A DNA stretch of 64,000 nt from an uncultured Chlorobiaceae bacterium (GCA_903824045.1 CAIJVD010000017.1:1-64000); one strand, 5' to 3'; shown: positions 20,313-47,739, numbered from the stretch's first letter. Notes: generated by a model not told the origin, from the letters alone. Numbers and translations are program-made.

Positions 20313-20398
20313 ACTGTTTCAGTAATTACCGGCCTCTCGCCAGTCAGGGGAGATCCTCTTGGCCGGCGAGCTACGCCGCACCCCTTTGATTGTACCCT

Positions 20399-21685
20399 AT
20401 GAGACAAGTTTCGAAATACATCTTCGCACTCACGCTAACCTGTTTTCTTTACGGATGCAGCCCTCTGCCTATGGAGACCATCCATTCCAACAGGAACGCC
20501 CAGACGACGGGGACCCTGCCATTCAATGCACAGCACGACTTTTCGGAGGGCCGGGCTGTCGTTCAGGCAGGCAGTAAATTCGGTTATATTGACAGGCTGG
20601 GCAGGGTAGTCATCAAGCCTCAATTTGATGAGGCACATGACTTTTCAGAAGGTCTTGCCGTCGTGCGCATGGGCAGTCGCTTCGGGTTTGTTGACAAACA
20701 GGGAACCATGGTTTTCGTGCCGCAATTTGAAACGCTGCACAGCTTTTCGGAGGGCCTCGCAGGAATTCTTCTGGGCAGGGATAGTCCTGCAAAATCAGCC
20801 TTTGTCGATAATAATGGGAGTATCGTCATCAGTCGGCAATTCGGCTCTTCCACTCCCCTTTTGAAAGGCCTCACCAGAATACAAATTGATAATATGGAGG
20901 CCGGCAAGTTCGGCTTTATCGACGAGCGTGGAAGACTGGTCATCATCCCGCAATTCGACAATGCCCTGCGCTTTTCAGAAGGTCTGGCGGCAGCAAAACT
21001 CGGCAATGACTCCAACGGCAGATTCAGCTTTATTGACAAGCAGGGGAACACGATTATAGCTGCCCAGTTCGCTGACGTTCATCGCTTCAGGGAGGGAGTT
21101 GCGGCTGCAAGGCTCGGCAATGACTCCAACGGCAAATACGGTTTTATTGACAAACAGGGCCGGATGGTCATCACCCCCAGATTCGACAGCGTTCGTGACT
21201 TTTCTGAAGGCCTGGCAGCAGTGAAAATCGGCAACGATTCCAACGCCAAATTCGGTTTTATTGACAAGAGGGGAGAGATCCTCATCGACGCGCATTTCGA
21301 TGACGCGCACAACTTTTCAGAGGGCCTTGCAGCCGTAAGACTTGACGGACAGCATATGTTTATCGACAAGCTGGGCAATATGGCCATCAATCAGATTTTC
21401 ACCGATGCCCACGACTTTTCAGAGGGTCTGGCCGCGGTGAAGGTCGGCGGCGAATCTGACGGAAAATACGGCTTTATCGACAAACAGGGCAGAATGGTCA
21501 TCGCCCCCCAATTCGATGACGTTCATGACTTCATTGAAGGTCTTGCCGTCGTCAAGATCGGATTGAAACGAAGGTTTATCGATCGACAGGGCAAGGTCGT
21601 TATCGAACTGATCGATGAGGAGATTCCCGGCAACCGCAATGACCGGTTGATGGTAATGAATGACCGCAGCGGCACTCTCAATTAG
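20399..21685 (+). CDS. WG-repeat lipoprotein
   Basis: A 428-residue exported protein. The signal peptide ends at a lipobox-like LYGC at about residues 17-20. After it come about ten WG-type repeats of 35-45 residues, each with a core such as FGFIDKQGRMVI.PQFDDVHDFSEGLA (shown here as a composite). WG repeats form a beta-sheet scaffold whose function is mostly unknown, and they are frequent in surface proteins of Bacteroidota and Chlorobiota. The ATG at 20399 is chosen over the in-frame TTG at 20390 because the signal peptide then has normal length. It lies 86 bases after the VanZ-like gene and before a new sigma-54 promoter. Confidence 0.85.
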   Translation: MRQVSKYIFALTLTCFLYGCSPLPMETIHSNRNAQTTGTLPFNAQHDFSEGRAVVQAGSKFGYIDRLGRVVIKPQFDEAHDFSEGLAVVRMGSRFGFVDKQGTMVFVPQFETLHSFSEGLAGILLGRDSPAKSAFVDNNGSIVISRQFGSSTPLLKGLTRIQIDNMEAGKFGFIDERGRLVIIPQFDNALRFSEGLAAAKLGNDSNGRFSFIDKQGNTIIAAQFADVHRFREGVAAARLGNDSNGKYGFIDKQGRMVITPRFDSVRDFSEGLAAVKIGNDSNAKFGFIDKRGEILIDAHFDDAHNFSEGLAAVRLDGQHMFIDKLGNMAINQIFTDAHDFSEGLAAVKVGGESDGKYGFIDKQGRMVIAPQFDDVHDFIEGLAVVKIGLKRRFIDRQGKVVIELIDEEIPGNRNDRLMVMNDRSGTLN

Positions 21686-21908: not shown

Positions 21909-23018
21909 ATGAATGTAGCTGAACTCATGACCCTCGGCCTTAGCCATACCAGCAATGCGGTTGCTGAAGCACTCTACCTCAAGAGCGGCATCGACATCAC
22001 AAAACCCATTACCTTTCATGCGCTGGTCAACGAGCGGTGCAACTGCAAGTGCCGCCATTGCGAGTACTGGCGCCAGGAGGAGTACCTCCCTGAGATGACT
22101 ATCGAACAGTGGGAGCAGACACTGTTGAGCATAAAGCGGTTTACCGGATCGTTCTCCGTGAACTTCAGCGGCGGAGAGCCCTTGATGAAAAAGGGATTCA
22201 TTGACCTGCTCTCTTTCTGCCGCGATAACGACATCCACGCTGGAGTCACAACCAACGGCCTGCTGCTCAATGAGAAAAACGCAGCAAGGATTGTGGCGGC
22301 AAAGCCTTTCAACATCAACATCTCCTGTGACTCCAATACCGACGAAACCCATGACTATATCAGGGGGGTTCCGGGACTGCTTCAGAAAGTCAGCAAAGGA
22401 ATAACCTTTCTCCAGCAGGAACAGGCAAAACAGAAGATCACCTTTCCGATCATCATCAAGCCGACAATCATGTCGACGAACTTCCGGGCCCTTCAGGATA
22501 TCGTGCAATGGGCCACGGATATCGGCGTGACCGCTGTGAATTTCCAGCCCCTCGGGCGGTGGAGTCGCGAAACCTATGATGAACTGTGGATCGAAAAGGA
22601 ACAGTGGGCGGAACTCGATCAGGTGATGGAAAAACTGATTTCCATGAAGAGGGCCGGGGCTCCCATAATGAACAGCGAGGAGATTCTTCGCCTTGTGACG
22701 GCGAGCTTCCGCGAAGAGAAGGCATCAGCTGAACATATGCCGTGCAGAATTGGTCTTCAGGAATATTACATCCGTCCGGATGGCGAGGTAAAACTCTGCT
22801 TCCACTTCCCGGCCATAGGGAACACGACGAAGGCTTCAGCAGAAGAGATATGGAGAGGGCCAAAGGCACAGGAAATCCGCCAGGCAACGATACAATGCGA
22901 CAAGCTCTGCCTTCTGACATGTCTTTCACATAAATCGCTGGCCAACAAATTCAACCAGGCGCTGACGATTCTTTCCCGTCAGAAAAAAACCGATCACCTT
23001 CATTGCGTTCAAGAATGA
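21909..23018 (+). CDS. Radical SAM protein with SPASM-like C-terminal cysteines
   Basis: A 369-residue enzyme. CNCKCRHCEYW holds the C-x3-C-x2-C motif for the [4Fe-4S] cluster that cleaves S-adenosylmethionine, followed by NFSGGEPLMKKG, typical of MoaA/PqqE-like proteins. The C-terminal region has cysteines in MPCRIGLQEYYIRPDGEVKL.C and CDKLCLLTCL, which fit an auxiliary cluster domain. Substrate is unknown. It heads a run of coupled glycosyltransferase genes, the next starting within its stop codon (ATGA), so modification of a sugar or lipid carrier is plausible but unproven. Driven by a consensus sigma-54 promoter. Confidence 0.88.
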   Translation: MNVAELMTLGLSHTSNAVAEALYLKSGIDITKPITFHALVNERCNCKCRHCEYWRQEEYLPEMTIEQWEQTLLSIKRFTGSFSVNFSGGEPLMKKGFIDLLSFCRDNDIHAGVTTNGLLLNEKNAARIVAAKPFNINISCDSNTDETHDYIRGVPGLLQKVSKGITFLQQEQAKQKITFPIIIKPTIMSTNFRALQDIVQWATDIGVTAVNFQPLGRWSRETYDELWIEKEQWAELDQVMEKLISMKRAGAPIMNSEEILRLVTASFREEKASAEHMPCRIGLQEYYIRPDGEVKLCFHFPAIGNTTKASAEEIWRGPKAQEIRQATIQCDKLCLLTCLSHKSLANKFNQALTILSRQKKTDHLHCVQE

Positions 23019-24103: not shown

Positions 24104-25320
24104 GCACAAATACCATAGCATATCTCTGCAGCGAGTACCCTGCCGTATCACACACCTTTATCTACAGGGAGATAGAGTCCCTGCGCAAAGCCGGAATGCG
24201 TGTGCATACCGCTTCGATCCGCAAGCCCTCAAACCTTGAGGTCATGACACAGGCTGAACAGGAGGAAGCAGAGCGGACCCTGATGGTGCTCTCATCCTCT
24301 TTTTCCGAACTCTTTGGTGCCCATCTCCACTGCCTCCGCACGAGTCCGGCAGGATACATGCGCATGGCAATAAAAGGGCTGACGTTGCTGACCTCCGGAC
24401 CGAAAAGCCCGCTGAAGGCGGCCGCCTATTTCGCAGAAGCCGGAGTTCTGTTGCAGTGGATGCATCGCCACGACATTACACACATTCATGAGCACTTTGC
24501 CAACCCGACCGCCATTCTGGCCATGCTTATGAAAACCTATGGCGGGGTCAGCTACAGCATCTCGGTTCATGGTCCCGACATATTTTATACCGTCGACTCC
24601 GCCCTGCTGGCTGAAAAGGTCCAGGAAGCCTCCTTTGTGCGTTGCATCAGCCACTACTGCCGCAGCCAGATCATGCGCATCAGTGATCCGACGGGATGGA
24701 AAAACGCTCACATTGTCCGCTGCGGTGTTGACCCCGACCTCTACACGCCGAGGCCTGAGCCCTGCAACGAGAGTGCGCACCTCCTCTGCGTCGGCCGCCT
24801 GGTTCCGGCAAAAGGCCAGCACATCCTGCTCGAAGCCTGCTCCCTCCTGAAAAAAGCCGGCCTGAGATTCAGGCTCACGCTCCTGGGTGACGGCCCGGAC
24901 AGGCCCTCTCTCGAACGCTTTGCAAAAGCGCACTCCCTTGAAGAGTCGGTCACCTTTACCGGAGTCCTCGGCCAGGACAGGGTCCGAGCCCTTTACGACA
25001 CTGCCGATATCTTCGTGCTGGCAAGTTTTGCCGAAGGAGTTCCGGTTGTACTGATGGAGGCTATGGCAAAAGAGATTCCGGTCATCTCTACCCGAATTAC
25101 CGGTATTCCGGAGCTCATCGAGCAGGGAGAGGACGGGCTTCTTGCAACACCGGGAGACGCCGAGGATCTTGCGCTTCAGCTCCGCTGGCTGATCGAAAAC
25201 CCCGGACTGCGCCGGGAACTCGGCGTGGCCGGACGAAGAAAAGTCATCGAACACTACAACCAGCACAAAAACAACCAGAACATGGTCGATCTTTTCAACA
25301 GAGAAGCCCAAACTCCATGA
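24100..25320 (+). CDS. Glycosyltransferase family 4
   Basis: A 406-residue GT-B enzyme. The N-terminal half has CSEYPAVSHTFIYREIESL, common in colanic-acid-type WcaL/AmsK transferases. The C-terminal donor domain has LCVGRLVPAKGQHILLEAC and EGVPVVLMEAMAKEIPVIST, where the E-x7-E motif binds the nucleotide sugar. The ATG at 24100 overlaps the previous stop (ATGA), and the open frame further upstream to 23971 is rejected. It is coupled to the next transferase by another four-base overlap. Confidence 0.9.
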   Translation: MSTNTIAYLCSEYPAVSHTFIYREIESLRKAGMRVHTASIRKPSNLEVMTQAEQEEAERTLMVLSSSFSELFGAHLHCLRTSPAGYMRMAIKGLTLLTSGPKSPLKAAAYFAEAGVLLQWMHRHDITHIHEHFANPTAILAMLMKTYGGVSYSISVHGPDIFYTVDSALLAEKVQEASFVRCISHYCRSQIMRISDPTGWKNAHIVRCGVDPDLYTPRPEPCNESAHLLCVGRLVPAKGQHILLEACSLLKKAGLRFRLTLLGDGPDRPSLERFAKAHSLEESVTFTGVLGQDRVRALYDTADIFVLASFAEGVPVVLMEAMAKEIPVISTRITGIPELIEQGEDGLLATPGDAEDLALQLRWLIENPGLRRELGVAGRRKVIEHYNQHKNNQNMVDLFNREAQTP

Positions 25321-26495
25321 TGATCATCGAACTGATAGTGAAAATCCTGCTGATAGGGCTGAGCCTCCCTGTAGCCTATCTCCTTTTGAGCACCGTGGCG
25401 GCATATCTGTTCAAGAAAGAGCGGTCGGGTGAAAACCGCTTTCTCAATATCGGTGTGGTGATTCCTGCACATAATGAGGAGATGGGCATCGTCAGTACCA
25501 TAGAGGGTGTCCTTGCGTGCGACTATCCCGCAAACCGTCTTGAAATCTTTGTCATTGCCGACAACTGTGATGATGCTACCGCTGAAAAAGCACGGACTGC
25601 AGGAGCCGTTGTCTTTGAAAGGTCCGACACCTTCAATCGCGGAAAGGGCCAGGCTCTTGACTGGTTCCTGAATACCGGGCATGAGGCATACCGTCATAGT
25701 GATGCAATTGCTATCATTGACGCCGATGTCACACCCGACAAAAATTTTCTCCGTGAGATAAGCGCCTCATTCAGCAACCCCTTTGTGCAGGTCCTGCAGG
25801 CATACAACGGGGTCAGCAACCCGAAATCAGGATGGAGGCCAGCGCTGATCGATGCGGCATTCAACATCTTCAACCACCTTCGCATGGCCGGATCAGTCCG
25901 CCTGTCAGGAACATCGGTGCTGAAAGGCAACGGCATGGCATTCCGCACCACTATCCTGGAGCGATACGGGTGGCCCTGCCATTCAATAGTGGAGGACATG
26001 GAGTTTACACTACGCCTGCTTGAGGACAACATAACGGTTCACTACAATCCCGATGCCATCATCCGCAGTGAAATGGTCACCTCCGCCAAAAGCGCATCAA
26101 GCCAGAGAAGCCGGTGGGAAGGGGGTCGTTTCATGCTGATACGGAAAATGACGCTTCCCCTGCTTATGAAGTTCGCCAAAACAGGAGACTCCAAATACCT
26201 CTTCGCCCTTGCCGAACTTGCCACTCCCCCGCTGTCGCTGCTCGTCCTTCTCTGTTCAATAGCGACCGCAGGAGCCTTTCTGGTTCTCAATGGCGCATGG
26301 ACACTACTGGCAGCATCCTTCTGGGCCATCATGGCGTTCTACGTCATCTCTGGCCAAATCCAGCGTCGTGCAGAGCTCTCGACCTGGCTCTATCTGGCCA
26401 TGGCGCCGCTCTATGTGTTCTGGAAAATCCCGCTCTATCTGGCAATGCTTCTCAAGAAAAAAACTCCTGCATGGATTAGAACCACACGGGAATAA
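25317..26495 (+). CDS. Processive-type membrane glycosyltransferase family 2
   Basis: A 392-residue protein with one N-terminal helix and about three C-terminal helices around a GT2 domain. The D, D-x-D, E-D and Q-x2-R-W motifs are all present: ADNCDDATA, IDADVTPDKN, VEDMEFTLRL and QRSRWEGGR. This set is typical of cellulose/hyaluronan/poly-GlcNAc synthase-like enzymes and of dolichol-like GT2 enzymes. It overlaps the GT4 gene by four bases. It may build the polymer backbone or add a side-chain sugar; sequence alone does not decide. Confidence 0.87.
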   Translation: MMIIELIVKILLIGLSLPVAYLLLSTVAAYLFKKERSGENRFLNIGVVIPAHNEEMGIVSTIEGVLACDYPANRLEIFVIADNCDDATAEKARTAGAVVFERSDTFNRGKGQALDWFLNTGHEAYRHSDAIAIIDADVTPDKNFLREISASFSNPFVQVLQAYNGVSNPKSGWRPALIDAAFNIFNHLRMAGSVRLSGTSVLKGNGMAFRTTILERYGWPCHSIVEDMEFTLRLLEDNITVHYNPDAIIRSEMVTSAKSASSQRSRWEGGRFMLIRKMTLPLLMKFAKTGDSKYLFALAELATPPLSLLVLLCSIATAGAFLVLNGAWTLLAASFWAIMAFYVISGQIQRRAELSTWLYLAMAPLYVFWKIPLYLAMLLKKKTPAWIRTTRE

Positions 26496-26533: not shown

Positions 26534-28534
26534 ATGCAGGAGAATCCCTTGAGTGTAAACTATAGAGCAGATATTGACGGACTTCGAGCTATAGCCGTTT
26601 TAGCTGTCATCTTCTTTCATGCTGGAGTACCCGGGTTTTCAGGCGGGTTTATCGGCGTAGATATCTTTTTTGTTATCTCCGGATTTCTTATCACATCAAT
26701 TATTCTCAAAGAGATCAATAACGGAAAATTCTCTATTGCACGATTCTATGAAAGACGCATCAGGAGAATCTTTCCTGCTCTGTTTTTTGTCATCGCTGTT
26801 ACTTCATTTGGTGGGGCTGTGCTCTTTGAGCCAGCATCATTTATTGATCTTGCCGCAACAATAACATCAACCACACTGTTTTTTTCGAATATCTGGCTCT
26901 GGCAACATGCAGGATATTTCGATGTAGCATCAATTGAAAGGCCATTGCTGCACACCTGGTCACTGGCGGTTGAAGAGCAGTTTTATATTGTTTTCCCCCT
27001 GCTTCTGGTCGCAATCAATCGTTTTTTCAGCAACAAATATTTGCACTGGTTGATCGGAATCTGGATCAGCTCTTTTCTTATAAGTATTTGGGGAGTTCAT
27101 GCACATCCAAATTCAACATTTTATCTGGTCCATACCCGGGCATGGGAGTTGATTTCCGGATCAATACTGGCGACAGGACTTCTCCCTCAGCTGAAATCTG
27201 AGGTCAAGAGAAACCTGCTCTCGGCAGGAGGGTTCGGGTTGGTCCTCTTCAGTATTGTATTCTATACCGAGAGCACTCCGTTTCCTGGTGCCAGCGCGCT
27301 TGTTCCTGTAATGGGATGCAGCATGCTTATCTATAGCGGCATTGAAGGGAAAGCAACCGTTATCAACCGCTTGATGAGCATCAAGCCGCTGGTTTTTATT
27401 GGACTGATCTCATACTCACTCTACCTGTGGCACTGGCCGGTCATTGTCATGACAAAGTACTTTTTATTTAGACAGTTAACCCCTCTTGAGACCATTGGCA
27501 TAATAGTTGCGATCTTTATCATCTCAATAATTTCATTGGAGTTTATTGAGAAACCATTCCGCGGAAATTACCCGATCTTTCCGCAAAGAAAACCGCTCTT
27601 TATCATTGCCGCAACAACAATACTTATCACGGCCATAAGCGGCTATGCTGTGGCACTCAATAATGGCTTTCCCAATCGATCTCACTATGTAAGCACGCTT
27701 CTTGACAGAGCTCATCAAGGCGGTGATAACATTGGATCGCCTGTTACGAAAATTGAACACTGCACCATTAAACGAGTGGGCGCAGCAGATAGAGAGCCAA
27801 CATTTATTATCTGGGGCGACTCGCATGCGGGAACATTAGTTCCAACCGTTGACTTAATGGGGAAATCCTACGATTTATCCGGCTATACTGCCGCATTTTA
27901 TAATCGGCCGCCACTGCTTGGCGTCGATATTGATAAGGATAATACGCATGTATTCAACGACAGCATTCTCCTGTTCATCAAAAACCATCCCGAAATCAAC
28001 ACCGTATTTCTTGTTGGCATGTGGGAGAGATACGCCTCTGGCCACAGGTATAATGAGAGTAATCCTGTAAAACTGACCGACACCTTCAGCAACAGTTCAA
28101 ATGCATCAAATGTGCTGGTTGTCAACAACAGTCTCTCGAGAACAGTAAAAGCCATTCTTGCCCTGAATCGTAAAGTGGTCATCGTCAGCGATGTCCCTGA
28201 ACTCGGAGTACATGCCGTCAGACTTTGCTGGGTCAAGAATATTACCGGTGAAAGCATTACCGGGCATCTGCCGACTATTCAGGATTATACCACCCGGAAC
28301 AATAACGCAAATGCACTGTTGAATGGACTCTCTCGCACTCCTGGCGTTTCTATCATTCACCCCGAGTCTTTGCTTTTTGATCATAATGGACGCGCCATTA
28401 TTATTGCTGATAACAAGACCCCGACGCTCCTCTACACTGATAGTGATCATTTATCAACTTATGGTGCCTTTTTTGTTGCGCCTGCATTTCAGGATGTTTT
28501 CAGGAGAATGGCCAGTACTCAGCACACCCTCTAA
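26534..28534 (+). CDS. OafA-type acyltransferase with C-terminal SGNH domain
   Basis: A 666-residue inner-membrane O-acyltransferase. The AT3 domain starts with NYRADIDGLRAIAVLAVIFFHA, carrying the conserved Arg and His, and spans about ten helices to residue 375. The rest is a periplasmic SGNH-like domain with IIWGDSHAGTLVPTVD as the GDSH block and SDHLSTYGA as the D-x2-H catalytic end. Such proteins move acetyl groups from cytoplasmic acetyl-CoA onto extracytoplasmic polysaccharide. It lies 38 bases after the GT2 gene. Confidence 0.93.
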   Translation: MQENPLSVNYRADIDGLRAIAVLAVIFFHAGVPGFSGGFIGVDIFFVISGFLITSIILKEINNGKFSIARFYERRIRRIFPALFFVIAVTSFGGAVLFEPASFIDLAATITSTTLFFSNIWLWQHAGYFDVASIERPLLHTWSLAVEEQFYIVFPLLLVAINRFFSNKYLHWLIGIWISSFLISIWGVHAHPNSTFYLVHTRAWELISGSILATGLLPQLKSEVKRNLLSAGGFGLVLFSIVFYTESTPFPGASALVPVMGCSMLIYSGIEGKATVINRLMSIKPLVFIGLISYSLYLWHWPVIVMTKYFLFRQLTPLETIGIIVAIFIISIISLEFIEKPFRGNYPIFPQRKPLFIIAATTILITAISGYAVALNNGFPNRSHYVSTLLDRAHQGGDNIGSPVTKIEHCTIKRVGAADREPTFIIWGDSHAGTLVPTVDLMGKSYDLSGYTAAFYNRPPLLGVDIDKDNTHVFNDSILLFIKNHPEINTVFLVGMWERYASGHRYNESNPVKLTDTFSNSSNASNVLVVNNSLSRTVKAILALNRKVVIVSDVPELGVHAVRLCWVKNITGESITGHLPTIQDYTTRNNNANALLNGLSRTPGVSIIHPESLLFDHNGRAIIIADNKTPTLLYTDSDHLSTYGAFFVAPAFQDVFRRMASTQHTL

Positions 28535-39002: not shown

Positions 39003-39629
39003 ATGGAGCATCAAAAGGAAAGTTATAGCGCATCGAGGAATACCTCCTGTAGTATGCGCATCAGGCCCGCCAAGGCGATGCTCATTACCGCAGTGCTTGC
39101 AGGCCTCGCATGGGCACGTCCATCAATCGCCAATGCTGAAGGCAGCAGCACAACCATCTCTTTTTTGTCGAGTGCACCGAAAACGACGATACTGGCCTCG
39201 CAAATCTCGATGTCACCTGTAACTCCAGCATCTACCACCATAACTTTTGACTGGGCGGCCCAAAACGTCTCGGCAACTCTGGCAGCCGATATTACCTACA
39301 CCTCAACCGTTGTAACACAGACGATCAGTTCAATCTGGACAGCAACATCATTCAAGACCACGAACAGCTTGGCACCAGCCTATAGTGCAGCATACAGTGT
39401 CAACGGATCCGGGAGCTCTACAGGGTACTTCTACAATGCTCAGGACCCGACATCATCAATAAAGGTCACCCTTACGCCGAACGTGCAGCAGAGTTCAACC
39501 GGAACCGGCACTAATACTCGATATACCTTGATCGCTTCACTCGATCTTGCCTTTGACTTCACAACAGTCAAGCGCTCTGGAGATTACACCGGGACCATTA
39601 AATGCACCATAACACCAACAAACTTCTGA
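39003..39629 (+). CDS. Secreted subunit-like protein of the usher operon (third)
   Basis: A 208-residue protein with a signal peptide ending ARPSIANAE. The mature part is Ser/Thr-rich, without cysteine, and closes with KRSGDYTGTIKCTITPTNF, a strand pattern like that closing spore-coat-U/alternative-usher pilins. It shares the YNAQDPTSSI block with the preceding protein. A GTG at 38994 is the alternative start. Its stop overlaps the chaperone start by one base (TGATG), coupling subunit and chaperone translation. Confidence 0.65.
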   Translation: MEHQKESYSASRNTSCSMRIRPAKAMLITAVLAGLAWARPSIANAEGSSTTISFLSSAPKTTILASQISMSPVTPASTTITFDWAAQNVSATLAADITYTSTVVTQTISSIWTATSFKTTNSLAPAYSAAYSVNGSGSSTGYFYNAQDPTSSIKVTLTPNVQQSSTGTGTNTRYTLIASLDLAFDFTTVKRSGDYTGTIKCTITPTNF

Positions 39630-40459
39630 TGAAAACGATTTTACGCCTCGGTCTCGTTCTCCTGATGGCATCACTGCCGACAGAACAGCTCTACGCCAAT
39701 GATCCACCCGGCCAGATTGCAGTTTCACCCGCAATGGTTGAAATGAAGATAGGATCAAAGCCGGTCAGCCAGTCGATTCGGCTGAAAAACCTCAAGAAAG
39801 AGGCCGTCACCCTCAAGGCGGAGGTCTTTAACTGGACGCTCGACAATCAGAACAAGCTGAAAATGATGCCCCCGGACGGGCAATCGCTCGACCAGTGGAT
39901 GATAATCAACCCCGAAATATTCACCATAGAACCCGGGAAGGAACAGGTGATACGCTTTTCGGTTCGCCCCCGTACGACCCCTCTGCCCGGTGAGCACAGA
40001 GCTATCATCTATTTTACGGAGCAATCTCCCGCAATGAGCCCTGAAGGGGTCGAAATTCTCTTCAAGCTCGGCGTAGGCGTTTATGGATATGCAGATAACG
40101 TTCGCCATACCAGTGCATTGGAGGGGATAACATTTGACAGCGCAAGCAAAACGCTTAAGGTAGATATACTGAACTCCGGAAATGTGCACACCCGCCTCAA
40201 AGGCGATTATGCCATCTGGAAAAAAGGAACCTTCCCGGGATTTAACGCCATAAACACCTATCTCAACTGGCCGCATAACAAAACAAAGCCAGACTGGTTT
40301 ATAGGAGCAGGCAGTATGGACAACACCCCGGTACTGCCGGGAACCAGAAGAACCATCAGCACACGAATCCCCCTGCCGGCAGATAAAAACGGCTATGTAG
40401 TTACGGTGACGGGAACCATTGATGATACAAAAGTTGAAAAGGTCTTTTCAGTAAACTGA
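39629..40459 (+). CDS. PapD-like periplasmic pilus chaperone
   Basis: A 276-residue protein with a signal peptide ending LYANDPP. IAVSPAMVEMKIGSKPVSQSIRLKN is the edge strand of a PapD-type immunoglobulin domain, VIRFSVRPRTTPLPGEHRAIIYF carries the conserved chaperone core, and KLGVGVYGY follows. Such chaperones cap subunits in the periplasm and deliver them to the usher. It is longer than the usual 230-250 residues. It is coupled to the third subunit gene and followed after 21 bases by the usher gene. Confidence 0.87.
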   Translation: MKTILRLGLVLLMASLPTEQLYANDPPGQIAVSPAMVEMKIGSKPVSQSIRLKNLKKEAVTLKAEVFNWTLDNQNKLKMMPPDGQSLDQWMIINPEIFTIEPGKEQVIRFSVRPRTTPLPGEHRAIIYFTEQSPAMSPEGVEILFKLGVGVYGYADNVRHTSALEGITFDSASKTLKVDILNSGNVHTRLKGDYAIWKKGTFPGFNAINTYLNWPHNKTKPDWFIGAGSMDNTPVLPGTRRTISTRIPLPADKNGYVVTVTGTIDDTKVEKVFSVN

Positions 40460-40480
40460 GATTGCAGACGGAGAAAACTG

Positions 40481-43210
40481 TTGCCCCCGGTAAAAAACAA
40501 ATCCCTTTTACTTATTCTCTTTCTTTGCTTGGGCATTGAGGCTACTTCATCATGGCCTGCTGTTGCAGGGGAAGAAAAGGCTCTTGTAAAAGATGACCAG
40601 ACGCCGGCAGAGAGTCGCCAAAAACCAGGCACTCAGCTCATTCCGACGAATGAAGCTCTCCTGCAGACACTGTTTGTAGGAATATTCATCAATAGCCGCT
40701 TCGAAAAAGACGGGACGATATACCGGGAGAAAAACGAATACTGGATTCCCTTTCCCTTTTTTCTTGAAATGACGGGACTCAAAGAGGATGGTCGGACGGG
40801 AAGTGTTGCACGCTATTCGACCTCGATCGGCGCGATCAGTTTTGATACCGCATCGCTTAGAACAATCAATGCGCTCCCCTGCATTTCGTTCTCCGAGCTT
40901 AAAAAGGTCTTTTATATCACGGCGGCTTTCAACCAGCCCCTGTTTGCAGCAATGCTCGCCGTTCCCTGGGCACCCGGTTCCCCACAAAAATTGCGGCAGA
41001 AAACGGATCTTCCGGTAGACATCAAAGCTCCTGAAAGTTCAATATCCTTTATCGGCATTGAAGCACAAGGCACCTATGATTTCGACTCGACCTTCAAAAA
41101 ATACCTGTTACTCGAAACCTCCGGCCGCCTGGCCGGAGGAATATGGGATGTAACCGCCAATGGTGACCCTCAGTCAGGCTTTTCACCCTCAAGCTACCAC
41201 TGGACCGCATTCAACAGCAATCTTGCCCTGCGCCTCGGCACAGGATATTCAGGCAGTTACTCGCTCATCGGCTCGCAGGCAGTCACCGGCCTGCAGATAG
41301 GATGGAACAACCGCTCGATACTTAAGCAGCTGGATGCCGAGCAGCATAGCTCCAGCGATATTTTTCTGAACATCGACAATAATCAGTCGAGAACCATTGA
41401 GGGCTTCGGCCCTCCTGCAACCATTGCTGAGCTTCGTTTTGACGGCGAGGTTTTTTCACGCTTGCGCATAGGACTTGACGGCAGGTTTGCATTCCCTGAC
41501 GTACGCATGACCAGCGATCTGCGCAAAACCGAGGTCTACATCTACGAGCGCTCCATCAACGAAAAGCCTATAAAGGTTATCGACTTCAGCCAGTCGGTAT
41601 CGAATCGAGCTCTTCCGGGAGGAGAACTGCTTGTTCGCGGCGGGCTTGGCCAGACCGGCAACCCCTTCAGCCAGCAGCCTGGCGCAACAGGCTCAACGGC
41701 AGCATTCGCCCACATCCTCTATGGATTGAGTGACAGGATCTCCCTGGAAACTGCCGTGCAGCAGAATACGGGTTCAGGAGTTCCCGACCTGCTTGCCGGA
41801 ACGATACTCTCTCCAGGTGCGAACTGGAACGCCGCACTCTACGGAGCCAGTTCAAACCGAAACTACGGTAGCGATATCCGTCTCGAAGGACATTATAAAT
41901 ACTGGGCAACCTCCTACTGGGGAAGGTTCCGACAACCAGCGTTCGGAAGCGACAATATAGAGAAGTACCTCAATCACTCTTTCCGCTGGACGGCAACCCC
42001 CGAAAGGCAGCTCTCTTTGCAACTCATCGGCCACTACGAAAAGCAGGGGGATAGCTGGCTGTCGAGATATCTGCTACCGGCAGGGAGTCTCTTCCCCTTC
42101 TCCTGGCTCAGCTTCTCCGCTACGCCGGATGAAGAGCAGAACTACCGATACGAAGCAGGCGTCCGGTTAGGGAATCAGAGCAATCTGCGAGCGATCTATC
42201 ATCACAACATCGCTTCGGCTGATTACCTGCAGGAGTTCAATGAAAGACTCAACATCAGGTTTTTGCATGACTATGCCATCAACACCAAGGGCAATCTCTC
42301 CAACATGGTCATAGACTGGTATCCGCGCAGCAGCAAGAACGATCTGCTTGAAACCGCCTTTTCATATTCGAAAGGAAACGCAGGCATTACAGGGTCCTGG
42401 AGCCATTATGTCAACTCCGGGCTGAGGGTTGCCATGCAGTACAGCTATAACATGAACAATGCGACAAGTCTTAACCTTGGAAACATTGTTTCAGCAGCTA
42501 CAACCCAGGCCCCACAAAAATACGCGTCACTTTCACTCTCCTGGGACCTTGGCTGGTCGAACAAAGGGCTGTTTCCCGTCAACCGCAACGCTATCACCCT
42601 TACCAGGGGCGGCATAGCCGGATCACTCGATATAGAAAACGAAACAAGACTCTCAGCTGCAGATGTCAACAACATCAGCATCCTGCTCAACGGCCGCAAC
42701 ATGCAACAGCGCCAGATTGACGGATCATTCTTTGTCGGAAGCCTGAAGCCTGGCATCTACAACCTGTCGGTCGATCCGGAAAAGCTTCCTATAGAACTGG
42801 TTGTCGATCAAAAAGTACGCGTGATAGAGGTAAAAAATGGTGCCGTTACGGGCGTCAAGATCCCCATTTATGCAGAGTTTGGCGCTTCCGGTCTTGTAAC
42901 AGACACCGCCGGAAATAGCCTTGCAAATGTCGTAGTGCTGATTGCAGGGAAGGAGAACAAAACCACCGTCAGAGTTGTCACCAACGAATTCGGCTATTAT
43001 CGAACTGACCGCCTGAGGAGCGGCTCATACGTCATTTCGGCCGAATCTGTAAACAACAGACCTGTTGCCACCAAAAAACAGCCGTTTACCATTAAAGATG
43101 ACTATCTCTTCGATCTCAACCTCATCATTGAACCTCCATCAAAGGCGCCGATCACTGTACCGCCAACAATTGAAAAAACAACCACAATCAAAACAGGAAT
43201 AGAATCATGA
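40481..43210 (+). CDS. Outer-membrane usher-like protein with C-terminal CarboxypepD-like domain
   Basis: A 909-residue exported protein. A signal peptide precedes an N-terminal domain (about 55-165), followed by a long region of amphipathic strands typical of the usher beta-barrel (about 190-720). The end holds a middle-domain-like piece (SILLNGRNMQQRQIDGSF) and a regulatory-domain-like fold (ASGLVTDTAGNSLANVVVLI) that resembles CarboxypepD_reg. It would secrete and assemble chaperone-bound subunits. The start is a TTG with GGAG at good spacing, and no better in-frame ATG precedes the signal peptide. Sequence is far from classical FimD/PapC, so the family call is partly from operon context. 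Confidence 0.8.
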   Translation: MPPVKNKSLLLILFLCLGIEATSSWPAVAGEEKALVKDDQTPAESRQKPGTQLIPTNEALLQTLFVGIFINSRFEKDGTIYREKNEYWIPFPFFLEMTGLKEDGRTGSVARYSTSIGAISFDTASLRTINALPCISFSELKKVFYITAAFNQPLFAAMLAVPWAPGSPQKLRQKTDLPVDIKAPESSISFIGIEAQGTYDFDSTFKKYLLLETSGRLAGGIWDVTANGDPQSGFSPSSYHWTAFNSNLALRLGTGYSGSYSLIGSQAVTGLQIGWNNRSILKQLDAEQHSSSDIFLNIDNNQSRTIEGFGPPATIAELRFDGEVFSRLRIGLDGRFAFPDVRMTSDLRKTEVYIYERSINEKPIKVIDFSQSVSNRALPGGELLVRGGLGQTGNPFSQQPGATGSTAAFAHILYGLSDRISLETAVQQNTGSGVPDLLAGTILSPGANWNAALYGASSNRNYGSDIRLEGHYKYWATSYWGRFRQPAFGSDNIEKYLNHSFRWTATPERQLSLQLIGHYEKQGDSWLSRYLLPAGSLFPFSWLSFSATPDEEQNYRYEAGVRLGNQSNLRAIYHHNIASADYLQEFNERLNIRFLHDYAINTKGNLSNMVIDWYPRSSKNDLLETAFSYSKGNAGITGSWSHYVNSGLRVAMQYSYNMNNATSLNLGNIVSAATTQAPQKYASLSLSWDLGWSNKGLFPVNRNAITLTRGGIAGSLDIENETRLSAADVNNISILLNGRNMQQRQIDGSFFVGSLKPGIYNLSVDPEKLPIELVVDQKVRVIEVKNGAVTGVKIPIYAEFGASGLVTDTAGNSLANVVVLIAGKENKTTVRVVTNEFGYYRTDRLRSGSYVISAESVNNRPVATKKQPFTIKDDYLFDLNLIIEPPSKAPITVPPTIEKTTTIKTGIES

Positions 43211-44037
43211 CTGGATATACGCAGTTTATCTCGAAAATGCTCCTCAGTGCCGCGGCATTTGGAATGATTGTTACCGGCACGGCCAGAGCTGCCAGTCAAA
43301 TTGCCACTGACGGATCCCAATCAGTTGGTCTTATTGCAAAGGCATTTGCAATAGAGTTCATCGAAAAGGAAAACACATTTGTCAGTGTAAGTGAAACCGA
43401 CTCCGACCACGGGAGTCACTGCCTACTCAATAAAAAATGTGACATCGCATTGATGGGCAGAGAGATAGATAAAGATGAGGTCGCTGAAGCAAAAAGGAAT
43501 GCTGTCGACCCCGTCCGTTACATTGTTGCACTTGACGCGATCACCATGGTTGTTCATCCAGACAACCCCGTCAACGGCCTGACACGTGATCAGATCCGAA
43601 ACATCTACACAGGAAAATACATCAACTGGAAACAAGTCGGGGGGCATGATGCTCCAATTGTGGTCATTCAGCGTGAGATAGGCAGCGCCACAGAGGAGAG
43701 CTTCATCGCACTGGTGATGGGCAAACATCATCCGGTATCGATGAGAACCGTAACGATATCAAGCAATCGCGAAATCAAACGCCGCATCAATTCAACGCCG
43801 AATGCCATCGGATTCATCGGACATGGCTTTGTTGACAAATCAGTCAAAACACTGACCGTCGACGGCATAGACCATACCGAACAGACCATTAAAGACACGA
43901 CCTACCCGCTCCACAGGACGCTCTACATGTACACCAATGGCCAGCCGACGGGGGTTATCAAAAAATTCATCGAGTTTCCGAGAACTGACAAGGGAAGGAA
44001 AATCATCAGCACCATCGGCTTTGTCAACTACTACTGA
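43207..44037 (+). CDS. PstS-like periplasmic substrate-binding protein in usher operon
   Basis: A 276-residue exported protein (signal ending ARAASQ). It follows the phosphate-binding-protein plan: TDGSQSVGLIAKAFA, CDIALMGREI, AITMVVHPDNPVNGLT, IYTGKYINWKQVGG and VIQREIGSATEESF. Those blocks match PstS-like proteins, but no PstCAB transporter genes are nearby. Its ATG overlaps the usher stop, so it is made together with the fibre. It may act as a surface or fibre-borne binding protein instead of a transport component. Confidence 0.8.
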   Translation: MTGYTQFISKMLLSAAAFGMIVTGTARAASQIATDGSQSVGLIAKAFAIEFIEKENTFVSVSETDSDHGSHCLLNKKCDIALMGREIDKDEVAEAKRNAVDPVRYIVALDAITMVVHPDNPVNGLTRDQIRNIYTGKYINWKQVGGHDAPIVVIQREIGSATEESFIALVMGKHHPVSMRTVTISSNREIKRRINSTPNAIGFIGHGFVDKSVKTLTVDGIDHTEQTIKDTTYPLHRTLYMYTNGQPTGVIKKFIEFPRTDKGRKIISTIGFVNYY

Positions 44038-44048
44038 AGTCCAGACCC

Positions 44049-44180
44049 ATGCAAACACTTCAGGCAGAAAAAAGCAGTGCTATCGACACGCTCAGGGGCC
44101 TTGCCTGCACGAAAGCACCCTCAATGGCGCAGAGGTCAGACCTTGGCAATAGTTTCCCGACAACCAAGCAGGAGTCATGA
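44049..44180 (+). pseudogene. Short coupled ORF resembling the start of an AT3 acyltransferase
   Basis: A 43-codon frame begins MQTLQAEKSSAIDTLRGLAC and then loses resemblance. The I-D-x-L-R-G-L-A block is how AT3/OafA acyltransferases begin, with the conserved Arg. Its TGA overlaps the ATG of the phosphopantetheinyl transferase (ATGA). It is probably the stub of a deleted acyltransferase gene that survives as a leader for translational coupling. A functional small peptide is not excluded. Confidence 0.45.
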
Positions 44181-45064
44181 ACGTGATGATGATCAATCAC
44201 AATGAAGTGCATCTCTGGAGCGCAAAAGTTCATCCTCTGACGCAACACATTGCAGAGACCTATATAACGTGGTTGTCGGATTCGGAAAGAAAACGTTATG
44301 ACCGGCTGGCCACATCAAGAGGTCGGCATCAATTTCTTGTTACCCGGGCCCTGGTCCGTTCGGCACTCTCCATCTACCTGCAGGTGAACCCGGAAGAAGT
44401 TGAATTCAGGTATGGGCACTATGGAAAGCCAATGCTTGATCCGGCCTGTGGCCTGCATTTCAATCTGTCAAATACAAATGACCTTGTCGTCTGCCTGGTC
44501 AGTTGCTCGGGACCGGTAGGTGTAGACATGGAAAAATGTACCCGAAAAGAGGAGCTCTTTGAAATTGCCAACGGTTTTCTCTCATCTGCAGAGTATAAAG
44601 AACTCTCCTTCCTGCCCGTCAATATCCAGAAAGAACGAGCGTTATCGCTCTGGACCCTGAAGGAAGCATTTGTAAAGGTTCTTGGCATCGGCATGAACTG
44701 TCCATTGGACACTATACGCGTTGAATTCGACGACCAAAACAAAATCAGCATACACGTTGATGACAAGATCACCCCTCATCCGGGCCAATTGAGTTATGGG
44801 ATGTTTGATTATCAAAAACACAGAATCACACTGGTCATAGAAGGGTCCGTCCTGAACCGGTTAACAATCATTGAAGTACAACCATTCATGAACGAACCAA
44901 CTATGTATTGTGGGTTAAGCCTGCAACACCGCATAAAATCCGAACCCATTCAGAGTGGAAAAATCAATCACAAATATTTTCACTCAATCACGAATATGAG
45001 ACAAACTGTCGAGAAGAGGATATTAGTGCCAATTAATTTATTACAGAAAAATAAGTTAGGATAA
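44177..45064 (+). CDS. 4'-phosphopantetheinyl transferase (Sfp type)
   Basis: A 295-residue enzyme that loads the phosphopantetheine arm of CoA onto carrier proteins. The Sfp hallmarks are present: GVDME (115-119) and WTLKEAFVK (159-167), with an upstream RGRHQFLVTRALVR segment. A GGAG ribosome site precedes the ATG. The C-terminal 70 residues are longer than usual and basic. The carrier domain of the next protein, 23 bases downstream, is the obvious substrate. Confidence 0.92.
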   Translation: MNVMMINHNEVHLWSAKVHPLTQHIAETYITWLSDSERKRYDRLATSRGRHQFLVTRALVRSALSIYLQVNPEEVEFRYGHYGKPMLDPACGLHFNLSNTNDLVVCLVSCSGPVGVDMEKCTRKEELFEIANGFLSSAEYKELSFLPVNIQKERALSLWTLKEAFVKVLGIGMNCPLDTIRVEFDDQNKISIHVDDKITPHPGQLSYGMFDYQKHRITLVIEGSVLNRLTIIEVQPFMNEPTMYCGLSLQHRIKSEPIQSGKINHKYFHSITNMRQTVEKRILVPINLLQKNKLG

Positions 45065-45087
45065 AAGAGCCGATCAATCATCATCAT

Positions 45088-47739
45088 ATGCAGACCATCA
45101 ATACAACTGTTCAGGAACCCCCGGAAAGCATCAAAACCAGTTCAGTGATCAAGGCTGTTGGTGTGCTGAGCTCAAATACCACGGATTTCGTCAGGACCAT
45201 GTTCAGCGCATATGAACAAGGAACTGTCGTTGTACCTCTCCGGAACAGGATCTATGCAGAAAAACTCAAGGGCATTCAGCTTACCGAGATCATTGCCACC
45301 GGGAACGGCACCCGCTGGTTTAACGAAAAACATGTTTTTCGCTCTGACGACACCACTGCCCAAATCACCTATACCTCCGGGACCGAAGGGGAGCCAAAAG
45401 GGATCATACTGACTCACCAGGCTCTCTCGGACGTTGTCGATCGCCTCAACAAGGTGATGCTCACTGACAGTTCGATCAGGGAGTATGTAGGCGTTCCGGC
45501 ATACTACTCTTTCGGCTTCGGACGTTTTCGGGCCTGCGCGGCAGTTGGCGGAGAGGCATATATCCCCCGAAATGGCTTTGATCCGTTTGAAATCGCCGAA
45601 ATGCTTCAGAGAGAAGAGATTAACGCCATTTCTGCTGTCCCTTCACTGTGGCGCATAATTCTCTCCAGCCCTGACATTATCGGCCCTCTCGGCAAAAGAG
45701 TCCGATGGATTGAAATCGGAAGCCAGTACATGTCCCGAAAAGAGAAGGAGGAGATGAAGGCGTTGTTTCCAAATGCAAAAATCGTCCAGCATTATGGACT
45801 GACCGAAGCATCCCGATCCACACTGCTGGACATATCGGAGACAGAGGGGTTTCTGCTGGATTCCGTAGGAAAAGCCTTTGGCAGAACCGAAATCAGGCTG
45901 ACAGAAGATACAAGAATCCAGATCAGAGGGCCTCATGTATCAGAGGGCCGGATAACCAGTTCGGGCATCGTAAAACAGACAGACACAGAGGGCTGGCTGA
46001 CAACGGCAGATCTCGGCGAACTAAAGGACGGTTATCTTTTCTTCAACGGCCGTGCTGATGATACGATCAACTGCGGAGGAATAAAGCTCTTTCCTGAACA
46101 TATTGAAGCCCAATTGAAGCGGTCATTAGCCATCTCTGATGGTATTGCTGTGGCAAGGGTTCCTGACCACTTTCGCGGAGATGGTCTCCTTGTCGCCTTT
46201 ACCCCCGAGACAGGAAGATCAGCGAGCGAAGTACAGTCAGCAACAGCAACAATCCTTGAGGAACTCGGAGTAAAGGCGGGTGACGCCCTGCATGTGTCTG
46301 AAGTTGAAACCCTTCCAAAAACGGAGACAGGCAAAGTCCAGCGAAGAGTTCTCACAAACACTTTCGTCCCTCGTCCGGAACTCATGCAAGCGGAGAAAGA
46401 GCCGGAAAAAGAGAATGACCATCAACAACTCACTGAAGAACAGCAGAAGCTGGTCGGGATCTGGGAGGATGTGCTCGGAATACGTCCTGTGTCCATTCAC
46501 ATGAGTTTTTTTGATCTGGGAGGCGACTCACTCTCCTCACTGAAGCTGATGATGAAAATCGAAAAAGCCGGGCTTCCGAGAAAGATTGCACAGGCATTCT
46601 TTGAAGGCAAAACCATCGCCGAAATCACCCGGGAAGAGAGTCATGAACCTGCAGCTGAAAAAGAGGAAAAAGGTTCAACTCGAAACCTGCTCTCCAGCAC
46701 ATCAGACGCTATCAATGCAACTCGCGGCACACTTGCCTTGTGGCTGCTTGCCATTCATTGGCTACCGGGAGTCTGGAAAAGAATGCCTGCCGCATTTTCA
46801 GACATGGACACCCTGCTTACTCCTGCTTATCGACTTGGCACACCCGGCTTTGCGATTGTTTTCGGGCTGGGGGTAGGATTCTACTTCTTCCACCAGCTGG
46901 CAACAAATGCCTCCCTTGTCAAGAAAAATATCCGGTTTGCAGCCGGCCTGCTGATTGGCGGAATCCTGCTTTCGGCCAGCCTGAACTATACCACGATTCT
47001 GGCCAGTCACGCAGAACTCAATGCGCCACTGGGAACTGTCCTTTTCTACTCTGTCCTGTTATACTATCTGCTGGCCGTCATCAGCATCAAAACATGGTTC
47101 CGAATAATCTCCCGGTTTGAAAACTGGATCCTCGGGGCACTTTGTACATCGACAGTTTTTTTTGGACTCGGAATTTTAATGCGCCATGTGCTCCCTGATG
47201 CGCAGTCAGAGTCAAATATTGATGTGATCCGGCTGATGATGAAAGCAAACTATAATTACTTCACCCTGACTGGCGAAGTCATGCTTGGCATTGCAACGGG
47301 ACTGCACTTGCGGGAGAATCTTGAAACTGCCGGTATTGAAAGAAAATACGCGCTGGCGGGCGGGGTGCTGTTCTGCTATGGAATCATCAATGCGCTGGAC
47401 AGCGGACTGGCACGAACGTGGTTCACATCGGTGATTGCGCCGATATGGATGCTCCCGACATACCTTGGGTTCATTATTCTCCTGTTGTCCGGCATGATGT
47501 TTGTGCGGAAAAACATACAAAACAGGCTTCTGCACCTCTCGATAAAACTCCTTGGGACTCTGGGGATACTCTCCCTTCCACTCTATGTGGGCCATGGAAT
47601 GGTGATTCCGACGAAAAACCTGCTCGTCAATATTGGAGTTCCTTTGCCGGGCGCATTGATGATCCCCATGCTGCTCTTCATTGGCAGCATAGGATATGCG
47701 GCAAGGCGTATTTTTATTGTCTATGCTCAAGCAGAATAA
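45088..47739 (+). CDS. Adenylation - carrier - membrane acyltransferase fusion
   Basis: An 883-residue three-part protein. Residues 1-430 are an AMP-forming adenylation domain: YTSGTEGEPKG (95-105), QHYGLTEAS (234-242), the TADLGELKDG motif (306-315), GRADDTINCGGIKLFP, and ETGKVQRR with the catalytic Lys at 416. The segment before the first motif is about 70 residues shorter than usual. Residues 445-515 are a carrier domain with FFDLGGDSLSSLKL, Ser481 taking the phosphopantetheine arm. From about 540 there are about ten membrane helices beginning ATRGTLALWLLAIHW, an AT3-like opening with Arg and His. The plan mimics DltA-DltC-DltB in one chain. Substrate (amino acid or other carboxylate) is unknown. 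Confidence 0.85.
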   Translation: MQTINTTVQEPPESIKTSSVIKAVGVLSSNTTDFVRTMFSAYEQGTVVVPLRNRIYAEKLKGIQLTEIIATGNGTRWFNEKHVFRSDDTTAQITYTSGTEGEPKGIILTHQALSDVVDRLNKVMLTDSSIREYVGVPAYYSFGFGRFRACAAVGGEAYIPRNGFDPFEIAEMLQREEINAISAVPSLWRIILSSPDIIGPLGKRVRWIEIGSQYMSRKEKEEMKALFPNAKIVQHYGLTEASRSTLLDISETEGFLLDSVGKAFGRTEIRLTEDTRIQIRGPHVSEGRITSSGIVKQTDTEGWLTTADLGELKDGYLFFNGRADDTINCGGIKLFPEHIEAQLKRSLAISDGIAVARVPDHFRGDGLLVAFTPETGRSASEVQSATATILEELGVKAGDALHVSEVETLPKTETGKVQRRVLTNTFVPRPELMQAEKEPEKENDHQQLTEEQQKLVGIWEDVLGIRPVSIHMSFFDLGGDSLSSLKLMMKIEKAGLPRKIAQAFFEGKTIAEITREESHEPAAEKEEKGSTRNLLSSTSDAINATRGTLALWLLAIHWLPGVWKRMPAAFSDMDTLLTPAYRLGTPGFAIVFGLGVGFYFFHQLATNASLVKKNIRFAAGLLIGGILLSASLNYTTILASHAELNAPLGTVLFYSVLLYYLLAVISIKTWFRIISRFENWILGALCTSTVFFGLGILMRHVLPDAQSESNIDVIRLMMKANYNYFTLTGEVMLGIATGLHLRENLETAGIERKYALAGGVLFCYGIINALDSGLARTWFTSVIAPIWMLPTYLGFIILLLSGMMFVRKNIQNRLLHLSIKLLGTLGILSLPLYVGHGMVIPTKNLLVNIGVPLPGALMIPMLLFIGSIGYAARRIFIVYAQAE

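Follow-up and report, generated by a model that had tools for sequence, protein, structure and literature searches.

What does a protein do that joins an adenylation domain, a carrier domain and a set of membrane helices in a single chain, and from where would such a membrane domain take its donor? Bacterial surface polymers such as O-antigen, peptidoglycan and capsules are modified by AT3 proteins, whose presumed donor is acyl-CoA. A locus in a 64,000-nucleotide stretch of DNA from an uncultured Chlorobiaceae bacterium (the window) raises the question of whether a transferase of this kind could instead be loaded by a carrier that is part of the same polypeptide. An earlier note on this stretch had proposed a one-protein machine analogous to DltA, DltC and DltB, in which an amino acid or other acid is activated, held as a thioester and passed across the membrane. 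Both reading frames that it named, of 295 and 883 residues, are real, and they are listed with the neighbouring features in Table 1. The source genome (2.09 Mb, judged 99.96% complete) has Chlorobium/Chlorobiaceae metagenome assemblies as its nearest named relatives and is that of a Chlorobium-type green sulfur bacterium.

Table 1. Features of the window discussed in the text
Feature	Coordinates	Strand	Evidence
EPS-locus family 2 glycosyltransferase	25317..26495	+	Orthologue directly precedes the pair in G030 and the AT3-only gene in many Chlorobiaceae
AT3-SGNH acyltransferase, behind the EPS glycosyltransferase	26534..28534	+	Pfam Acyl_transf_3 9.4e-33, SGNH 6.7e-38
Decayed AT3-only acyltransferase gene stub, 43-aa ORF MQTLQAEKSSAIDTLRGLAC...	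44049..44180	+	AT3-only protein matches
Sfp-type 4'-phosphopantetheinyl transferase (PPTase), 295 aa	44177..45064	+	Pfam ACPS 1.2e-14, AASDHPPT_N 3e-07
A-T-AT3 protein, 883 aa	45088..47739	+	ORF confirmed
Adenylation domain, residues 20-426, short N-terminal part	45145..46365	+	Pfam AMP-binding 3.4e-31
Carrier (PP-binding) domain, residues 452-515	46441..46632	+	Pfam PP-binding 1.9e-10
Ser481 codon, expected phosphopantetheine attachment site	46528..46530	+	Position in translation; invariant in 22 members
Membrane domain, residues 541-883, diverged AT3/TmAT type, ~ten helices	46708..47736	+	Motifs, relatives' Pfam matches, topology

Predicted domain architecture and the adjacent PPTase

The 883-residue protein, hereafter the A-T-AT3 protein, carries adenylation, carrier and membrane domains in one chain, as the earlier note had proposed. 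Full-length orthologues at 55–60% identity exist, and the ORF is therefore not a product of chance. The AMP-binding match spans only positions 155–373 of the 384-position profile; it starts at position 155, and the opening section of the normal N-terminal subdomain is missing from the adenylation domain, whose N-terminal part is short. The catalytic motifs of this domain are intact (TSGTEGEPKG, YGLTE, D308, R322 and K416). The PP-binding match covers residues 453–514, with Ser481 lying within GGDSL, and ~30 residues tether the carrier to a C-terminal, multi-helix membrane domain of ~340 residues, joining it where helix 1 begins on the cytosolic side. We aligned 22 members of the family, four of them Chlorobium copies. 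All 22 contain the PP-binding domain and share an NRPS-like A-T layout (motifs A3–A10, K416 and the carrier S481). K416 and S481 are invariant, as are R546, H557, P586, G729 and Y833 in the membrane domain; 21 members also have H836.

The Sfp-type transferase that had been described as the protein's own is encoded 23 nt upstream, and no convincing promoter or terminator was found in this gap. It adjoins the A-T-AT3 gene in all four Chlorobiaceae genomes with an orthologue. The genome contains two PPTase matches, this one and AcpS (contig C28), and two carrier domains, one in the A-T-AT3 protein and the other in an 83-residue ORF that, judged by its size, is the fatty-acid ACP. With only two carriers in the genome, the A-T-AT3 protein is the sole evident client of the PPTase besides ACP, a pairing that appears exclusive; two of the other genomes that carry the gene (G030 and G050) likewise have just two carriers each. 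In a fifth genome (G072), the PPTase orthologue lies beside a two-module NRPS (A-T-C-A-T-TE, 1984 aa; L049:7869-14625), and the two genes are part of an EPS locus of the same type, which indicates that the PPTase can serve another partner.

Assignment of the membrane domain

Published landmarks of TmAT proteins are R-x10-H, FxxxxG and SxxxY (PMC9833829, PMC12423673). At the family level, we assign the membrane part to AT3 on the strength of profile matches. Pfam Acyl_transf_3 matches 18 of the 22 members, 16 as whole proteins (best 5.3e-10) and two, from Paracoccus (0.0016) and Novosphingobium (1.9e-6), by a C-terminal part that aligns with almost the full length of the profile. The four Chlorobium copies, the window's protein among them, have no match to this Pfam model. 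Their membrane domain gave no AT3 signal by HMM or profile-profile comparison, nor did profile-profile comparison link it to the other A-T-AT3 proteins or to controls. Pairwise z-scores that placed AT3 above control membrane proteins were discarded, since reversed AT3 sequences reached nearly the same scores and the top alignment had the wrong register.

The proposed AT3 assignment of the four Chlorobium copies is based on motifs and co-linearity. R-x10-H is present in helix 1 as R546 and H557, so that the AT3-like start described in the earlier note holds as a motif but not as a Pfam match. FxxxxG occurs in helix 2 as F588xxxxG593 in all four copies and is mostly missing from the large plasmid clade, and SxxxY in helix 9 is followed by a histidine (S829xxxY833xxH836). 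Instead of the strict DxxR of helix 1, Chlorobium has N543xxR546, and the Asp is not conserved in other members; this Asp is reported to be dispensable in OacB (PMC12423673). The helix 3 RxxR position reads K613xxR616 in Chlorobium and is variable elsewhere in the family. We considered loss of RxxR, which binds the CoA phosphate, as a signature of carrier use and dropped the idea, as the motif is relaxed rather than cleanly lost. The ordered motif set was found in all four Chlorobium copies, 15 of 19 ordinary AT3 sequences and none of 26 control membrane proteins, and it arises in 0.4–1% of block shuffles, a share that drops to 0.01% or less once the H of YxxH is added, although these control and shuffle figures are somewhat flattering because the set was chosen after seeing the sequence.

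The hydropathy profile and the distribution of charges are compatible with about ten helices, in agreement with the earlier count. With helices placed by hand in four orthologues, K+R per residue is 0.15–0.17 inside and 0.06–0.08 outside. By this positive-inside bias, the carrier lies in the cytosol together with the R546 end of helix 1, on the side where AT3 proteins receive their donor.

Substrate of the adenylation domain

NRPS adenylation domains bind the amino group of their substrate through an Asp. The window's protein has Ser141 in its place, and all 22 members have Ser or Cys there; the same column holds Asp in the adenylation domains of the G072 NRPS and Asn in EntE. Ser or Cys at this position makes an alpha-amino acid of the D-Ala type an unlikely substrate, and the acid that is activated is probably not an alpha-amino acid. 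This position argues against the amino acid that had been suggested as one possible substrate. The domain scores below the cut-offs of both the NRPS amino-acid adenylation model TIGR01733 (88.5 bits; cut-off 317.4) and the exosortase A-associated acyl-CoA ligase model TIGR03098 (109.8 bits; cut-off 592.35).

Genomic context

A short ORF directly upstream of the PPTase, its stop overlapping the PPTase start (ATGA), is the 5' remnant of a deleted AT3-only gene. Each of the 15 AT3-only proteins encoded in EPS loci of Chlorobiaceae matches positions 44049-44108 with its first ~20 residues (MQTLQAEKSSAIDTLRGLAC...), in most cases start codon on start codon. No intact copy of the AT3-only gene was found in the window's genome, whose only Pfam AT3 match is the AT3-SGNH protein of Table 1. 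In many Chlorobiaceae, an AT3-only acyltransferase gene occupies the slot behind the EPS glycosyltransferase or lies near it. In G030, the PPTase and A-T-AT3 pair lies 29 nt behind the orthologue of this glycosyltransferase. Two genomes that have lost the AT3-only gene thus carry the pair either where that gene would lie (G030) or just behind what is left of it (the window's genome). The pair sits inside the same EPS cluster in G050, and in G045 no EPS cluster surrounds it in the sequence that was read, so that it is in or near an EPS locus in three of the four Chlorobium genomes. The EPS glycosyltransferase itself is present in 37 of 86 genomes, among them every one of the four that carry the pair, a co-occurrence with a chance of about 0.03 that is weak alone. 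Relatives in other phyla show no tie to polysaccharide genes.

The link to polysaccharide genes that the earlier note had drawn is thus borne out by the G030 slot and the window's stub, and its two companion links fared less well. An exosortase of the window's type occurs in 7 of 86 genomes and in two of the four with the pair, the other two being without it, and in none of the three relatives examined were usher/chaperone genes found within about 15–30 kb of the pair. In the window, a chaperone-like gene, an usher-like gene and then a gene for a PstS-type phosphate-binding protein, which overlaps the usher gene by 4 nt, occupy positions 39602-44037. The PstS-type gene is an odd partner and is not near the pair in relatives. 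Elsewhere, within the EPS cluster, a protein with eight WG repeats (20390-21685) is encoded beside a radical SAM/SPASM gene (21909-23018).

Distribution and family

Full-length orthologues (55–60% identity) occur in four of the 86 Chlorobiaceae genomes, one of the four being the window's own, and the 394 genomes sampled from the phylum yielded no further A-T-AT3 orthologue. The gene is thus a patchy accessory gene in this family. Nor is the layout confined to the window: beyond the phylum it is widespread. A search with the relative from Paracoccus zhejiangensis gave 117 plasmid records at E ≤ 1e-20, and in 41 of these the match spans at least 80% of the chain. Their hosts are Alphaproteobacteria and Actinobacteria, among them Rhizobium, Sinorhizobium, Leisingera, Rhodococcus and Mycolicibacterium, and the plasmid-borne relatives are annotated only as 'AMP-binding protein'. 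We found no relatives in viral contigs and no description of the architecture in the open-access literature. A-T-AT3 is therefore a real, conserved and widespread architecture that is apparently undescribed.

In a tree of adenylation domains, the Chlorobium copies form a clade with the full-length members from Paracoccus and Novosphingobium (support 100/100). The A-T-AT3 proteins as a whole fall in two separate clades, with a single origin not rejected (p-AU 0.225). At five loci in Rhodococcus, Mycolicibacterium and Pararhizobium (L024, L027, L029, L034 and L039), the A-T-AT3 gene adjoins Fe(3+) ABC transporter genes, a possible link to metal uptake. All five lie in a distant clade, at about 18% identity.

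Discussion

Our results point to a protein that resembles several known systems in part. Its closest likeness is to the AT3/TmAT proteins (OafB, OatA, Oac; PF01757), with which it shares R-x10-H, FxxxxG and a SxxxYxxH near the C-terminus, about ten predicted helices and nearby EPS genes. In contrast to these, its donor would apparently come from the fused adenylation-carrier module and not from acyl-CoA; moreover, the window's protein lacks an SGNH domain, has relaxed forms of DxxR and RxxR (NxxR and KxxR) and falls below Pfam detection. Like the Dlt system (DltA, DltC, DltB and DltD), it would proceed from adenylation to a carrier thioester to an outward-acting membrane transferase, although it is one chain rather than four proteins and its adenylation domain lacks an amino-acid code. 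The analogy drawn earlier holds for this logic but not for the transferase, since DltB is an MBOAT protein, a fold distinct from AT3 (PMC12423673). No MBOAT match was found by Pfam in the 883-residue protein, which has AT3 motifs instead. We therefore regard the A-T-AT3 protein as Dlt-like in logic only and AT3-like in kind.

Two further comparisons concern the adenylation module. The epsilon-poly-lysine synthetase is an NRPS-like A-T protein with a non-standard terminal domain. Such proteins share with A-T-AT3 the order of adenylation domain, carrier and membrane-embedded terminal domain, as well as the use of an Sfp-type PPTase, whereas the A-T-AT3 protein ends in an AT3-like domain rather than in tandem soluble condensing domains and has a non-amino-acid substrate code. 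The exosortase A-associated acyl-CoA ligases of TIGR03098 are likewise adenylate-forming ligases near exosortase and EPS genes, but the A-T-AT3 adenylation domain is fused to a carrier and a membrane domain and scores far lower.

On balance, we think it probable that the protein is a self-loading transmembrane acyltransferase of the AT3 type, fed by its own acyl-carrier rather than by acyl-CoA, with exopolysaccharide as the most likely acceptor. What the sequence itself shows is the domains, the intact catalytic residues, the exclusive carrier/PPTase pairing in this genome, the relation of the family to AT3 and the EPS linkage in relatives. In the mechanism that we infer, from substrate and acceptor to activity and every chemical step, the neighbouring PPTase would attach phosphopantetheine to Ser481, and the adenylation domain would activate a carboxylic acid, probably not an alpha-amino acid, and load it onto this arm. 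The carrier would then slide its arm, with the acyl thioester attached, into the AT3 pore from the cytosolic side, in place of acyl-CoA, and the AT3 domain (R546, H557, Y833 and H836) would transfer the acyl group to an acceptor outside the membrane, most likely the exopolysaccharide of the cluster in which the pair sits or sat. A review of AT3 proteins judges the evidence to favour acyl-CoA over carrier proteins as the donor (PMC9558356). With its adenylation and carrier domains intact in all 22 members, the A-T-AT3 family may offer a natural exception to the acyl-CoA view on which that view can be tested.

More tentatively, the family could constitute an unnamed, widespread class of AT3/TmAT proteins in which a carrier arm loaded in cis, and not acyl-CoA, threads the membrane, allowing the use of acids without CoA esters, and of which the Chlorobium branch replaced the AT3 protein of the EPS locus. 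If so, the AT3 pore would accept a protein-bound arm, a wider range of acids would be available for surface glycans, in the form of a one-gene tool, and the carrier arm, by pinning the donor in place, would open the transmembrane step to direct study.

Three other readings were weighed. The AT3 domain might act as a release domain, transferring the acid from the carrier to a soluble or lipid acceptor at the membrane rather than to polysaccharide and yielding a small acylated metabolite such as a metal chelator or a signal. In favour of this, 5 of 16 large-clade relatives adjoin Fe(3+) ABC transporter genes, relatives occur on plasmids without EPS genes and the same PPTase adjoins a two-module NRPS in G072. 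However, the iron-linked relatives come from the distant clade and the Chlorobium pair is mostly in or near an EPS locus, and we consider a released metabolite unlikely. Slightly less likely still, in our view, is that the membrane domain serves as a mere anchor or exporter, with the loaded acid passed on to a different enzyme or else set free for export. In favour of such a role, the Chlorobium copies lack significant whole-domain similarity to AT3, and AlphaFold models built with three sequences are unreliable for the full chain and the membrane part (pLDDT 38 and 40); against it, all four copies keep the essential AT3 motif residues in order and spacing, and their full-length relatives are recognisable AT3 proteins.

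A functional D-alanylation-like system, in which an alpha-amino acid is activated and placed on a surface polymer, has the same division of labour as DltA, DltC and DltB, and the adenylation domain does score 78.9 bits against the DltA model. That score is far below the cut-off of 476, however, and the replacement of the amino-group-binding Asp throughout the family, together with a membrane domain that resembles AT3 rather than the MBOAT fold of DltB, makes this reading improbable. We thus continue to favour the self-loading acyltransferase.

Two of the relatives merit separate mention. The A-T-AT3 gene of Neorhizobium galegae (L023:12001-14200) is broken by frameshifts, and that of Rhizobium bangladeshense (L028:6641-14294) lies upstream of YcaO and TfuA-like genes of the RiPP type.
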